NCBI GenBank assembly: GCA_028283855.1
Contig: JAPWJX010000003.1
Span: 434,001-498,000, forward strand
DNA length: 64,000 nt
Direction: 5' to 3'
From: Verrucomicrobium sp.
GTDB lineage: Bacteria > Verrucomicrobiota > Verrucomicrobiia > Methylacidiphilales > GAS474
Part shown: piece after piece, positions 19,506 to 24,861 of the stretch
Layout of the letters: each line of letters begins with the position of its first letter
Position numbering within the stretch: the stretch's first letter is position 1
Program-made: the position numbers and the translations under genes
The notes under the pieces: model-generated
What the model was told of the DNA's origin: nothing
The model's database searches: none
The model's input: the letters and a program-made list of their open reading frames with translations, nothing else

Positions 19506-20723
19506 ATGAGTCGATTGCCCACGCGGCGCGTCGCCCCCCGGGCCACTCCGGCCCGTCGACCACGCAAGGAAACGCCTATTTGGCCGGAAAAAACCCGCCC
19601 GCTGCGGGTCTTGATTTGGGACGATCGTCCCGCCAGCGCCCGGCGCTGCGCGGCCCGGCTGGAAGCGGCCGGATTCCGCTGCAAGACGGCCCACGCCGCC
19701 ACAAAGCCGGAATTCCAAAAGCTGCTGACGTCAAGCGGGTGGGAACTGCTGCTTTGCGCCGACGCTTTCCTGGGAGAAGACCCGGCCGCGTTGGTCCGGG
19801 AGGCCGGCGTCCCGGCTCCCCTCCTCTATTTCGTTCGCGCCGGGGAGCGCGGGGGAAAGACCCCCTCCCCCGCCCGGCAGGCGGAGGCGCTCCGCGCCGG
19901 AGCCGCCGACTACCTGCTGCCGGAAGACTGGGACCGGCTGCCCTGCGTCATCGAACGCGCCCTCCGCCTCGGCCGCCTGGAAGAGGCCCATCAACGGGCG
20001 GATGCCGCCCGGGCGGGCGCGGAGCGGCGGCTGCAAACGGTCCTCGACCACAATCCCGACATCCTGCTGGTGATCCAGGCGGTGACCGGCACCATCCTGC
20101 GGGCCAACCGCGCCGTCCAGAATCTCCTGGGCTACCAAGAGGAGGAGCTGGCCGGGCGCCATTTCTCCGCCCTCTTCCCCCTGGAAAACGAGCCCGCCGT
20201 GGGCGACCTGATGGCCCGCTTCCGGGTGCGGGGCGGCGTCTTCGAGGGGCAGCGCTTCCTTTGCGTCGACGGCAGCGTCCGCCCCCTCGACGTGACGGCG
20301 GAAATCGTCGCCTGGGGCCAAACGCAGGCGATCCTGGTGACCCTTCACGACGCGGAAGCGCGGGAATCCCTGGAGCGGCAGGCCTTTTGGAACGGCCACA
20401 GCGCCGCCCGCTGCCTCGACCCGCTGCTTTGGACGGAAGCCGACGGGCTCATCTGCCACCTGAACGAGGCGGCCTGCCGCCTCCTGGGCTACCGGCCGGA
20501 AGAACTTCTGGGCCGGCCCCTGGCGGAAATCGACCCCGGCTTCGGAGCGGGACTCTGGCCTCTGCATTGGGAGGAGGTGAAGGCGCGGGGGCGCTTTCTC
20601 CTCACCACCCGCCTCAAGCGGAAAGAGGGGGACAGCCTGGCCGTGGAGGCGGAAGTCCTCCACCTGCGGCACAACGGGAGGGACTACCACTGCCTCCTGG
20701 CGCGGACCCCGGAGAGCGCGTGA
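19506..20723 (+). CDS. orphan signalling protein: degenerate receiver plus two PAS domains
   Basis: The 405-residue protein starts with a receiver-like domain (about 33-150: RPLRVLIWDDRPASARRCAA, acidic pair Asp39/Asp40, putative acceptor Asp86 in LLLCADAFLG). The conserved Lys of active receivers is missing: the usual YLxKP is YLLPED. Two PAS domains follow at about 178-290 (LQTVLDHNPDILLVIQAV, NLLGYQEEELAGRHFSALF) and about 300-400 (LLGYRPEELLGRPLAEIDPG). There is no kinase, cyclase or DNA-binding output. It may act as a sensor adaptor or titrating partner; a partner kinase is not in the window. It converges on the frameshifted gene to its right. Confidence 0.8.
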   Translation: MSRLPTRRVAPRATPARRPRKETPIWPEKTRPLRVLIWDDRPASARRCAARLEAAGFRCKTAHAATKPEFQKLLTSSGWELLLCADAFLGEDPAALVREAGVPAPLLYFVRAGERGGKTPSPARQAEALRAGAADYLLPEDWDRLPCVIERALRLGRLEEAHQRADAARAGAERRLQTVLDHNPDILLVIQAVTGTILRANRAVQNLLGYQEEELAGRHFSALFPLENEPAVGDLMARFRVRGGVFEGQRFLCVDGSVRPLDVTAEIVAWGQTQAILVTLHDAEARESLERQAFWNGHSAARCLDPLLWTEADGLICHLNEAACRLLGYRPEELLGRPLAEIDPGFGAGLWPLHWEEVKARGRFLLTTRLKRKEGDSLAVEAEVLHLRHNGRDYHCLLARTPESA

Positions 20724-20792: not shown

Positions 20793-21072
20793 TCAGCCCT
20801 CGTTCCAGACCCGTTCTTTTTTGGTCTCCCACTCCTCCCGAATTGCCGGAAGGTCGCGGCTGATCATGGCGGCGGACTTCCTCCGCTTCCGCCGGATTGC
20901 CGGAAAGCTCCGCCTGGGCCAGGAGGCCCTGCAGGAACGTCTCCCGCTCCGCCAGGCGGGCTTGGTAGAGGGAATTGATCTCGGCCAGGCGGGCCTTCTG
21001 GTCCGGGGTCAGGGGCCGGCTGGGCTCCTTCTTGGCCAGGCGCTCCATGGCCAGCTCATAGGCCGACTTCAT
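20793..21072 (-). pseudogene. small coiled-coil protein gene with apparent frameshift
   Basis: The frame from 21072 encodes MKSAYELAMERLAKKEPSRP, then LTPDQKARLAEINSLYQARL and a charged helix ending NPAEAEEVRR. This layout is familiar from short verrucomicrobial proteins of about 90 residues. At 20865-20872 the reading shifts by one base. In the +1 frame, starting at an ATG (20865-20867), the charged helix resumes as MISRDLPAIREEWETKKERV, then WNEG and a stop at 20793. Without the shift the frame runs on into a long Gly/Pro/Ser-rich nonsense tail. It starts 8 bases after the 227-residue gene and is probably cotranscribed. It could be a real mutation, a sequencing error or a programmed shift. 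Confidence 0.65.
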
Positions 21073-21079
21073 AGGGGGA

Positions 21080-21763
21080 TCAGGCCGGGGCCTGCTGCTT
21101 GGAGAGGCGCTCCATTTCCTGAAGCGTCAGGAGGTGCTCCGCCGGAGCGTTGGCCCCGCTGAAGCGCTCCTCGATGCCCAGCATCTCGTCCACCACGCGG
21201 GCGCAGGCCTTCTCGATGATCGCGGGCTCCTCGAACATCCATTCCGGATGGTCCTGGGCCACGCGCAGGAGATGGTCCCGCAGCCCCTCGGCGCAGAACC
21301 AAAGGCCGTAACGGTGAAGGGGGGAAAGCGCCAGCTCGATGGCGGACTGGTCCGCCGGCAGCCCGCGCAGGGAAAGCGTCAGGTTCATGCCGAAGATCTC
21401 CATGCCGCCCGCGATGAGGGCGGTGGAATACCAGGCCTTCACATGGTGCTGGAGGCCCGCCGTGGGCTCCCCGGCGGCCAGGATCTCGACCTGCTGGACG
21501 ATGATGTCATGCAGGCCCCAATGGTCCCGCAGGCACTGGAACTGGCGCAGGACCAGGTCAAAGGCCTCCACCGCATCCCGGCTGAAGCGGGCGCGCTCCG
21601 CGCGGAGGAGAGAGGTGTCGGGATAAAGGAAGAAGACGGCGTCGCCCGCCTGGTCAAACTTGGGAACGGAAGCGTTCCAATCCAGTAGGGCGGAAAAGCC
21701 GCTGTCGTCGGCGGGGGGCTGCTCGGGAGGAAGCGGGGGAGGTTGGACCGGCTCGGCGCTCAT
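21080..21763 (-). CDS. hypothetical protein, 227 residues
   Basis: A Pro-rich N-terminus (about 5-20) leads into a mostly helical soluble protein with balanced composition. Examples are LYPDTSLLRAERARFSRDAV, FDLVLRQFQCLRDHWGLHDI and LLTLQEMERLSKQQAPA. There is no signal peptide, membrane segment or recognised motif. It is the first of two minus-strand genes (8-base gap to the coiled-coil gene) and lies downstream of the small-protein run, separated from it by a strong terminator. Its own promoter is not obvious. I assign no function. Confidence 0.65.
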   Translation of the reverse strand: MSAEPVQPPPLPPEQPPADDSGFSALLDWNASVPKFDQAGDAVFFLYPDTSLLRAERARFSRDAVEAFDLVLRQFQCLRDHWGLHDIIVQQVEILAAGEPTAGLQHHVKAWYSTALIAGGMEIFGMNLTLSLRGLPADQSAIELALSPLHRYGLWFCAEGLRDHLLRVAQDHPEWMFEEPAIIEKACARVVDEMLGIEERFSGANAPAEHLLTLQEMERLSKQQAPA

Positions 21764-22008: not shown

Positions 22009-22431
22009 TCAGCCCACCTCGGCGCCTTCGGGAATCCGGAAACCGGAAAGGGCCTGCGAGATGCCCGCGAAGGGATTGGCGCTGGGAGCCTGCGAGCGGG
22101 TCATGTCGCCCGCGCCGTTCCGGAGCGTCTGCTGGGTGGCGGACGGCTGCGGGGCCGCCTGGGGATTGAGGAGCTTGTCCGCCAGGGGCTGAAGGATGCC
22201 GATGGCTTCCTCCGCCATGACGCGCTGCATGGGGGAGGCTTTCGCCAGCTTCCAGCGCGCGACGGCCAGGGCGCCGTCCTTCAGCGCCTCGCGGAAATTG
22301 CCGTGGACGAGGGCGTTGGCCGCTTCCGCGCCGTCGACGACCGCCGCCGCCTTTTCCCAGTATCCGCCGATCGGGGAACCGGCCAAAAGCGCCTTGCCTT
22401 GTGTCTTGAGGAAGCTGCCCATGAAGCTCAT
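22009..22431 (-). CDS. small-protein family member (140 residues)
   Basis: Unknown function. The N-terminus MSFMGSFLKTQGKALLAGSP is followed by IGGYWEKAAAVVDGAEAANA and LVHGNFREALKDGALAVARW. It carries a loose form of the family motif (L15-L16-A-G-S-P20-I-G-G), then a GN-x3-AL helix like the GD-x3-AA helix of the neighbouring 133-residue protein. The C-terminal half is Pro/Gln/Asn-rich and probably disordered. A good ribosome binding site (AGGAGA, 5 bases before ATG) supports the start. It is last in the run and followed by a strong terminator. It has no signal peptide. Confidence 0.65.
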   Translation of the reverse strand: MSFMGSFLKTQGKALLAGSPIGGYWEKAAAVVDGAEAANALVHGNFREALKDGALAVARWKLAKASPMQRVMAEEAIGILQPLADKLLNPQAAPQPSATQQTLRNGAGDMTRSQAPSANPFAGISQALSGFRIPEGAEVG

Positions 22432-22485
22432 AAAAATCTCCTGAGGGGGGTTAAGAAAGGAAGAGCAGAAGGAGTGCCAGGCGGC

Positions 22486-22887
22486 TTACTGCTCCAGGCC
22501 GGGGATGCGATTTTCCAGGGCGCTGGTGAGCGCCTGAAGGGGATTGGCGAATTGGAACGGCACATTGCCGTAGCGGGGCGCGCGGCCGCGGGCGGCGTCT
22601 TGCGCCTTGGTCGTGAAGACCCGGTCCTCGGCCACGTTCAGGATGCCGACGAGCAGCTCGGTCTTCCCGGCGGCCCGGCCGGTGATCGCGGCGCGGGCGC
22701 GGAGGCCGCCCTCCAGCAGCTCCATGGCGGCGTGGCCCTTGTCGCCATGCTGGAAATCCTGGTAGGCGTGGCGGAAGTTGTTCAGCGCCGCAAGGCCCTC
22801 GAAACCGCGGCCGGCGACCGGCACTTCGGCCAAGACGGCCTTGCCGAGGGTTCCTGCGATTTCCGTGGTAAGAGAGGGTTGGCTCAT
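22486..22887 (-). CDS. small-protein family member (133 residues)
   Basis: Unknown function. The protein reads MSQPSLTTEIAGTLGKAVLA, then EVPVAGRGFEGLAALNNFRH and DFQHGDKGHAAMELLEGGL. The family motif appears as V18-L-A-E-V-P23-V-A-G26, about 20 residues before a GD-x3-AA amphipathic helix. The last 40 residues are more polar (RAPRYGNVPFQFANPLQALT). AGGA lies 8 bases before the ATG. A terminator-like hairpin separates it from the gene upstream, so it may have its own promoter or be reached by read-through. Confidence 0.65.
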   Translation of the reverse strand: MSQPSLTTEIAGTLGKAVLAEVPVAGRGFEGLAALNNFRHAYQDFQHGDKGHAAMELLEGGLRARAAITGRAAGKTELLVGILNVAEDRVFTTKAQDAARGRAPRYGNVPFQFANPLQALTSALENRIPGLEQ

Positions 22888-22960
22888 GGTCTTGGTCCTG
22901 GTTCTTTGGGTTTCTAAACCTCAATGAGCATCGGCAATGCCAGGTACGCGCCGGTACGTA

Positions 22961-22988
22961 AAAAACGCCGGGAAAGCCCGGCGTTTTT
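22961..22988 (-). terminator. terminator within the small-protein gene run
   Basis: AAAAACGCCGGG pairs with CCCGGCGTTTTT (12-base stem, 4-base loop). Both strands end in a T tract, so it can work in both directions. It lies 26 bases after the stop of the 159-residue gene and would partly separate the last two genes of the run from the first three. Confidence 0.75.
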
Positions 22989-23014
22989 CGCGTTTTAAAG
23001 AGAGGGGAAAAGAT

Positions 23015-23494
23015 CTACCGCTCGCGGCCCCGCTCGGACCGGGGGGAGAGCTGGAGCGTTCCCGCGTCGTAGGCGCGGCGCAGGACGATGTCCCCGGCTT
23101 CATTGGCCCGGCGGGTCGCCGCGATCCGGGTGTCCATTTCCCGCGCGACGCCGACAGCGTCCAAAAGAGCGCCCAAGCCCAGGGAGACGCCCATGGCGAC
23201 AAACTCGCGCGTGTTATGCGCCTTCATCGTGACCCCGGCCCACACCAGGCCCAGGCCCGTCACCGTGGCCATGGTCTGATTGAGCCGGACCTGGCCCTCC
23301 AGCTTCTTGGCGTCAGCTTCCTCCGTCTTGCCCTGCGCGCGGAGACGGGAGGACTCGATGTGGGCGTGGACGGACTGGGCCAGGGCCGTCACCGTGCCGA
23401 CGACGGGGACCGCCTTGAGCAGCGCGTGGTAGTAGGGCGCGTACTGCTGGAAGTGAGTCGGCGTCGGTTCCTGGACGGGGGCGGTGGTGCTCAT
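23015..23494 (-). CDS. small-protein family member (159 residues)
   Basis: Unknown function. The clearest family motif is here: HALLKAVPVVGTVTALAQSV (about 23-42), followed by a charged segment (SSRLRAQGKTEEADAKKLEG). A long hydrophobic stretch with glycines comes next (about 76-115: MATVTGLGLVWAGVTMKAHN, FVAMGVSLGLGALLDAVGVA), then a charged tail. A hydrophobic helical hairpin able to insert into a membrane is likely. The ATG at 23492-23494, with AAGGA 5 bases upstream, is preferred over an in-frame ATG 13 codons earlier. There is no cleavable signal peptide. Confidence 0.7.
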   Translation of the reverse strand: MSTTAPVQEPTPTHFQQYAPYYHALLKAVPVVGTVTALAQSVHAHIESSRLRAQGKTEEADAKKLEGQVRLNQTMATVTGLGLVWAGVTMKAHNTREFVAMGVSLGLGALLDAVGVAREMDTRIAATRRANEAGDIVLRRAYDAGTLQLSPRSERGRER

Positions 23495-23521
23495 GTGATC
23501 CTTGGCTCTGGGTTGAAAAGA

Positions 23522-23568
23522 GCCCGGGAACAAGCAAGTACCGGGCCAGCCCCGCCATGTGGCGGGGC
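23522..23568. repeat. tandem hairpins between small-protein genes
   Basis: Two inverted repeats lie in the gap between the 161- and 159-residue genes. GCCCGG (23522-23527) pairs with CCGGGC (23541-23546). GCCCCGCC (23549-23556) pairs with GGCGGGGC (23561-23568) over an ATGT loop. No T tract follows on the minus strand, so they look like RNA structure or processing sites rather than terminators. Confidence 0.5.
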
Positions 23569-23598
23569 CGACCGTGAAAAAACCCGCTTAAACGGCGT

Positions 23599-24084
23599 TT
23601 AGCGCGTCCGTTCCAAGATGGCGGGCAGCGGCGCCGCCACTTCCGGCAGAGACCGGGAGGCCCCCTCCAGGTCGAGGCGGGATTCCTCCCGGCGGATCGG
23701 CCCTTCGTAGAGGAAGGCGTCCGCCCCCTCGCTCACGATGGCCTGCGCCGCCTGGGCGCCCACGAGGACGGTAGCCGCCTCCCCGGGGCCGCCCAGCGCC
23801 CAGGCCGCCGCGGCGGCCGCCAGGGGGATCACCAATTCCAGGGCCTGGCGGCCCTTCGATTTGCCTTGGTCGGCGTAGAGCTCCTGCAGGGCGGCGTGAC
23901 CCTCGGCCTGGGCCTCGGCCGCCTTGGCCAGGCACTCCCGCCGCTGGGAGAGGGCCTTGAGGCAGCTGTAAACCGGCAGGCACTTGAGCCCGATCTGTCC
24001 GGCGATCTCGCCGGAGGTCAGGCGGGGCACGCCGGTTTCGAGCGTTTCGGCCGCGTTATCGTCGTCGCTAAGAAAAAAAGACAT
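23599..24084 (-). CDS. small-protein family member (161 residues)
   Basis: Unknown function. After a short acidic start (SDDDNAAETLE) the motif appears as I-G-L-K-C-L-P37-V-Y. A charged Ala-rich helix follows (about 50-80: ECLAKAAEAQAEGHAALQEL), then a hydrophobic Ala/Gly segment (about 88-115: LELVIPLAAAAAAWALGGPG). The Lys-Cys-[VL]-Pro tetrad is shared with the 251-residue neighbour (LLKCVPLVG). AAGGG sits directly before the ATG. It follows the 251-residue gene by 21 bases, so the two are probably cotranscribed. Confidence 0.65.
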   Translation of the reverse strand: MSFFLSDDDNAAETLETGVPRLTSGEIAGQIGLKCLPVYSCLKALSQRRECLAKAAEAQAEGHAALQELYADQGKSKGRQALELVIPLAAAAAAWALGGPGEAATVLVGAQAAQAIVSEGADAFLYEGPIRREESRLDLEGASRSLPEVAAPLPAILERTR

Positions 24085-24105
24085 CCCTTGGGTTCCCGGT
24101 TGAAG

Positions 24106-24861
24106 TTAGTTGAGGTCGTGCGCGCCGCTGGTGCTCGGGTGGAGGCCCAGCTGGATCAGGCCGCCGTTCTTGTGGCGGGAAGGCCGGATCCGCTCGAAGA
24201 GAGCCTTGCCGTGCTGGAGCGTGCGGCCCGCTTCCAGCGCCTTGCCGACGGCCTTGGGAGCGCCCAGGCCCTTCATGGCGTCGCCCAGGCCGGGGACGTC
24301 TTCCAGGAGGGAGCCCAGGACTTCCTTCTCCGCCAGGCGGGCGGCGGCGTGGGCTTCCTTCGACTTGCCCTCCGCGTAGAGCCGCTCGGCGTTCTTGATC
24401 CGCTTGTCGAAGTTTTCCATCTGCCGCTCGGCCGTCAGCGAGATGCCCCAGCTGGGCAGGATGTATTCGGAAACCCCGTGGTGGAAGGGAAGGCTGGCGT
24501 AGATCGCCACGTTGAAGGCGCCCGCCCCCGCGCGGACGAAGCCCTGCAGGGCGCGCATGCCGACGATGCCCCACTGCCGCTTGCGGGCGGCGACCGCCGC
24601 CTGGCCCATGTTGATCATCCCGTGCGTCACGCCGGTGAGCCCGCCGACCAGCGGCACGCACTTCAGCAGCGCGCCGCCGATGCCGGTTTCGGCCTTCGTT
24701 TCGCCTTGAGCCGGTTCCTCCTTCTTTTCGGAGCCGGGTTCGGGCTCCGGCGCGGCGGCAGGCGCCGCCAGCCGCCGCGGGGCGGCAGGGGAGCCGGCCC
24801 GGTCGGGTATAAGGTTGCCGAAGAAGAGACCTGTCGTGGGGATGGGGGGATTAAGAACCAT
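24106..24861 (-). CDS. small-protein family member, first and longest of the run (251 residues)
   Basis: Unknown function. A Pro/Ala/Glu-rich leader (about 20-58) precedes the motif ALLKCVPLVGGLTGVTHGMI (64-83). Hydrophobic and Gly-rich segments follow (about 100-125: ALQGFVRAGAGAFNVAIYAS). The C-terminal half is charged and helical (NFDKRIKNAERLYAEGKSKE) with a second P-G-x-G (DVPGLGDAMKGLG). There is no signal peptide and no ribosome binding site. A shared 12-base element lies 22 bases upstream of the ATG, so this gene probably heads the operon. Confidence 0.65.
   Translation of the reverse strand: MVLNPPIPTTGLFFGNLIPDRAGSPAAPRRLAAPAAAPEPEPGSEKKEEPAQGETKAETGIGGALLKCVPLVGGLTGVTHGMINMGQAAVAARKRQWGIVGMRALQGFVRAGAGAFNVAIYASLPFHHGVSEYILPSWGISLTAERQMENFDKRIKNAERLYAEGKSKEAHAAARLAEKEVLGSLLEDVPGLGDAMKGLGAPKAVGKALEAGRTLQHGKALFERIRPSRHKNGGLIQLGLHPSTSGAHDLN

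Follow-up and report, generated by a model that had tools for sequence, protein, structure and literature searches.

A Net One-Base Frame Change in a Conserved Small-Protein Gene of a Verrucomicrobium sp. Assembly, Probably a Consensus Error

Introduction

Indels have been described as the most abundant type of nanopore sequencing error, nanopore metagenome assemblies are reported to carry indel frameshifts which raise the numbers of both genes and pseudogenes, and fewer genes are reportedly predicted once the frameshifts have been corrected (PMC8103633). The window considered in this work is a stretch of 64,000 nucleotides from the Verrucomicrobium sp. assembly GCA_028283855.1 (contig JAPWJX010000003.1, positions 434,001 to 498,000), and it contains a gene divided between two reading frames. 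The assembly was probably built on long reads, as suggested by its nine contigs for 2.56 Mb, by indels in both directions and by the location of several of these beside short one-base runs. The product of the divided gene belongs to a protein family that is conserved and widespread, yet unnamed and uncharacterised.

Experimental Section

The loci of relatives were obtained from the genome search (29 loci) and from a contig scan (the best 80 of 347 relatives), making 109 loci with 100 distinct proteins; some contigs occur in both sets. Seven further matching genomes without an assigned locus lie outside the 109 loci read, and three other scanned loci are the window's own.

A codon-model frame scan was run over 464 kb of the genome under study (G000); it is rough, and missed the window's own short site. 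Of its 26 frame-change calls, 25 were looked at (one at the slice edge was left out), and 15 were laid out together with the window site. Five of the 25 were proved with NCBIfam profiles, three were judged by eye to be frameshifts, and 17 were taken without proof as overlaps, gene ends or scan errors. When the same scan was applied to 400 kb of G002, a genome of the same genus, 51 calls were made; the 30 inspected resembled shadow reading frames and the run was discarded.

Results and Discussion

The Gene in Two Frames

The minus-strand ORF at 21072–20614 starts with an ATG at 21072 and codes for 152 amino acids, its family match being limited to the first 68 residues (21072–20869, MKSAYELAMERL...NPAEAEEVRR). 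In the frame displaced by one base, positions 20867–20796 of the minus strand code for the 24 residues MISRDLPAIREEWETKKERVWNEG, followed by a TGA at 20793–20795, exactly the low end of the interval given in the earlier note. The 68-residue and 24-residue pieces are one protein of about 92 residues, and their frames differ by a net one base. The features of the locus are as follows:

21080..21763, minus strand: upstream gene on the same strand, 227 amino acids; no Pfam match, found only in this genome among 30 searched
20869..21072, minus strand: first 68 codons of the small helical protein of about 92 residues (MKSAYELAMERL...EEVRR); profile positions 1–68 and genome matches
20860..20880, minus strand: frame-change zone, net one base, at the boundary between the two profile matches; exact base not assignable from the assembly
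20793..20867, minus strand: last 24 codons plus TGA in the one-base-shifted frame (MISRDLPAIREEWETKKERVWNEG); profile positions 70–90, 15.6 bits
20614..20868, minus strand: out-of-frame rest of the 152-amino-acid ORF, partly antisense to the PAS-domain gene at 19506–20723 (plus strand); no family match

With a profile made from the 100 distinct relatives, the first piece matched positions 1–67 with 99.9 bits, and the tail matched positions 70–90 with 15.6 bits alone and 12.9 bits when scored in the open stretch to which it naturally belongs. When all six frames of the entire window were scanned with the same profile, the second-ranked stretch reached 4.1 bits, so a chance match of the tail was ruled out and the join of the two pieces is not fortuitous. 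A frameshift dividing one short helical protein, as proposed in the earlier note, was thereby borne out in the sequence as given. The in-frame continuation, which the same note had called nonsense-like, was not reported against the family profile even at an E-value of 1000. The N-terminal pattern of the family (MK[ST]AYELAMERL) and the helix after it are present in the window gene, and the C-terminal helix and the size of about 90–95 residues usual in most relatives are present solely across the frame change (68 plus 24 residues). No second copy of the gene was found elsewhere in the genome by sequence and profile search. The site itself reads GTC CGC CGC CAT and lies outside any run of at least three of the same base, so it does not represent a classic homopolymer error.

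The Family in Relatives

The first piece was matched in 37 of 60 genomes, its own included (36 of the 59 others, with 45–64% identity). The family profile was found in 74 of 193 Verrucomicrobiota genomes (a sample at least 90% complete, this genome included), the profile search giving no match in the other 119. In 71 of the 73 other matching genomes the profile was covered from position 1–2 to position 90–91 with no stop, the two exceptions being G160, at a contig end, and G103, with a decayed copy. The latter (L178, G103:C1:921000–921800) has an internal TAA and is without the family start. For G034 and G037, two genomes missed by the single-sequence search, the profile matched in part (positions 33–89 and 1–13, respectively); from locus length and sequence, both look like genes cut at contig ends. 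One scanned record, L051, is titled Betaproteobacteria and has the same size and the same protein as L011 (G028, a genome of this order), so its title is probably wrong.

Comparison with intact homologues, a check proposed in the earlier note, gave a uniform result: in 109 of the 109 relative loci read (29 plus the best 80 of 347 relatives) the protein lies in a single frame, with a length of 89–115 residues. Tails close to that of the window gene occur among them, for example ...EEAEILQAELARDLRGIREEWETKKEKARASS. The split was therefore seen in this genome only.

Pfam searches gave weak matches only, the commonest being LTXXQ in 11 of 40 members (E-values up to 0.1, best 0.00015), and the first family member had no match. 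With NCBIfam the best E-value was 0.0025, for an ATP synthase subunit B' model (2 of 19 members), and the matches were weak and scattered; the best among PDB sequences was 0.077. The string MKSAYELAMERL was not found in the literature by exact-string matching.

Predicted Fold and Neighbouring Genes

The AlphaFold2 model of an intact relative (mean pLDDT 88.9, pTM 0.66) consists of a short helix (residues 4–14) and a helical hairpin (23–56 and 60–89), rather than the single continuous helix that had been suggested for the protein. On this model the last helix is interrupted about nine residues after its start, and translation of the assembled sequence would yield a product without most of it.

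In 35 of 80 loci (the best 80 of 347 relatives; 37 by a cruder clustering) a ComEC-like gene (Pfam Competence) shares the strand of the small gene, and none was found in this window. At L103:1342–3285 the reading frame of a ComEC-like gene continues into the small gene with no intervening stop, which may reflect a fusion or a frame error in that record. In the window, at 22009–24861 of the minus strand, five small same-strand ORFs lie in a row and appear by eye to be diverged paralogues of one another. When window ORFs from 5–36 kb were compared with 37 kb of G002, only the adjacent SMC gene and its antisense frames were matched.

Translation across the Break

The two pieces adjoin each other and each matches the family, as would be expected if a programmed one-base ribosomal frameshift fused them into the full-length protein. 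This reading is very unlikely: the two-frame arrangement occurs in none of the 109 relative loci read, GTC CGC CGC CAT has no stop at the shift and, by the usual criteria for slippery sites applied by eye, no recognised slippery run, and the other breaks of the assembly (see below) lie in unrelated contexts with directions not all alike. A conserved programmed shift was rejected on the single frame of the 109 loci, a comparison without a close relative, since both genus mates were searched and had no gene.

The tail opens with an ATG at 20867, and a GGAGGA ends 11 bases upstream of it, features that would suit two separate products, the second one starting at this codon. The GGAGGA sits, however, within the protein's own codons, the 24 residues would be only part of one hairpin arm of the AlphaFold2 model, and the relatives are unsplit in the loci read. 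The ATG pointed out in the earlier note does exist but is private to this sequence: none of the 100 distinct relatives has Met at that column (81 Gln, 16 Glu and 3 Thr), and the adjacent column has Met in 6 of the 100. A pair of separate products is thus extremely improbable, and even taken jointly the translational readings have a very small chance of being right.

Absence of the Gene from Close Relatives

The two genomes of the same genus, G001 (82% complete) and G002 (one contig, 99% complete), gave no match with either the single sequence or the profile, and the 13 genomes of family f8 included among the relatives sampled were likewise all without a match. Since the gene is absent from these genomes and decayed, with an internal stop, in G103, it is dispensable. 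This dispensability in the genus, together with a site outside any homopolymer, makes credible a real and recent frameshift mutation, by which the gene would be a young pseudogene on its way to being lost as in the genus mates. Additional lesions or relaxed residues, which a pseudogene might be expected to show, were not found: the tail is free of stops and the family pattern is retained on both sides of the break, so pseudogenisation would have to be very recent. We regard this as the main rival to a sequence error, but an unlikely one.

Other Frame Breaks in the Assembly

Five tested genes of the same assembly were found split in two frames, with halves that, each searched alone, continue one NCBIfam profile:

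C3:397156-399002 (L128:3156-5017), minus strand: glmS, broken at about C3:398022, profile positions 1–317 / 319–607
C3:122571-124119 (L137), minus strand: murJ, broken at about C3:123520, profile positions 5–171 / 191–503, 19 positions missing
C3:155516 (L138), plus strand: bioA, profile positions 2–264 / 265–416
C3:1001382 (L144), plus strand: uup, profile positions 129–366 / 367–635
C3:545382 (L132), minus strand: PIG3-family quinone oxidoreductase, profile positions 1–134 / 139–322

The profile positions lost at the breaks are none or few, apart from the 19 in murJ. Loss of GlmS or MurJ function in such a manner would be expected to be lethal. No other full-length glmS was found in this genome, in which two further partial hits (positions 1–221 and 335–424) are presumably, by position, a glutaminase-domain paralogue and a sugar-isomerase domain, respectively; for murJ only the two halves were found. 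The genome is 95.59% complete, so extra copies of glmS or murJ may lie in the missing part. In the relatives, glmS was above the cut-off in 9 of 9 genomes searched, in one piece in eight and cut at contig ends in one (G001), and murJ was in a single piece in 4 of 4.

Among the six breaks formed by the window gene and the five proved ones, five show a net extra base (window gene, murJ, bioA, uup and the oxidoreductase) and one a net missing base (glmS); of the three judged by eye (C3:605363, C3:127518 and C3:1017164), one shows a net extra and two a net missing base. Several breaks adjoin runs of G, C or A, whereas the window site does not. The apparent frame change at C3:1017164 (minus strand, L144) adjoins nine consecutive A residues and lies in a gene without family assignment. 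Besides the window site there are about eight believable breaks in the 464 kb, around one per window-sized stretch.

Because the same assembly breaks housekeeping genes in a like manner, error rather than biology is the most likely cause of the split: a one-base indel error of the consensus, arising in sequencing or assembly, very probably divides an intact gene. In the organism the gene would probably be whole and a normal helical-hairpin protein of about 92 residues would be made, the base difference presumably being absent from the real DNA. The breaks in glmS and murJ also speak against the young pseudogene, as these genes are not expected to be dispensable. That the lineage truly carries many intragenic one-base frame changes, those of glmS and murJ included, which are decoded by frequent ribosomal frameshifting, with the small protein made by such a shift here, is scarcely credible. 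Against a consensus error count the location of the site outside a homopolymer, the uneven directions of the breaks, and the lack of the gene in both genus mates and in 119 of 193 phylum genomes, which indicates that its genuine loss would be tolerated. Of the four options listed in the earlier note, sequence error is thus favoured by the housekeeping breaks, and a conserved programmed shift and two products are disfavoured by the relative loci; its interpretation is partly supported.

The assembly seems to hold about one indel-type break per 50–60 kb (8 or 9 over the 464 kb scanned, a rate with no clean control because the G002 scan was discarded); further split genes read from it, as well as unusual out-of-frame tails and seeming pseudogenes, should therefore be distrusted. 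A side result is the recognition of an unnamed small helical-hairpin protein in 74 of the 193 sampled phylum genomes.

Comparison with Known Systems

With the unnamed Verrucomicrobiota family typified by MKSAYELAMERL, the window gene shares the 68 N-terminal and 24 C-terminal residues, their order and spacing, and the MK-AYELA-E-L start, and it differs in being divided between two frames, in contrast to the single frame of the relatives in all the loci read. As compared with the indel frameshifts of long-read metagenome assemblies, the window site differs in having no homopolymer of at least three bases, and its assembly is itself only probably a long-read one; the features in common are frame shifts of a net single base that are spread through the genome and also affect housekeeping genes, which are whole in relatives.
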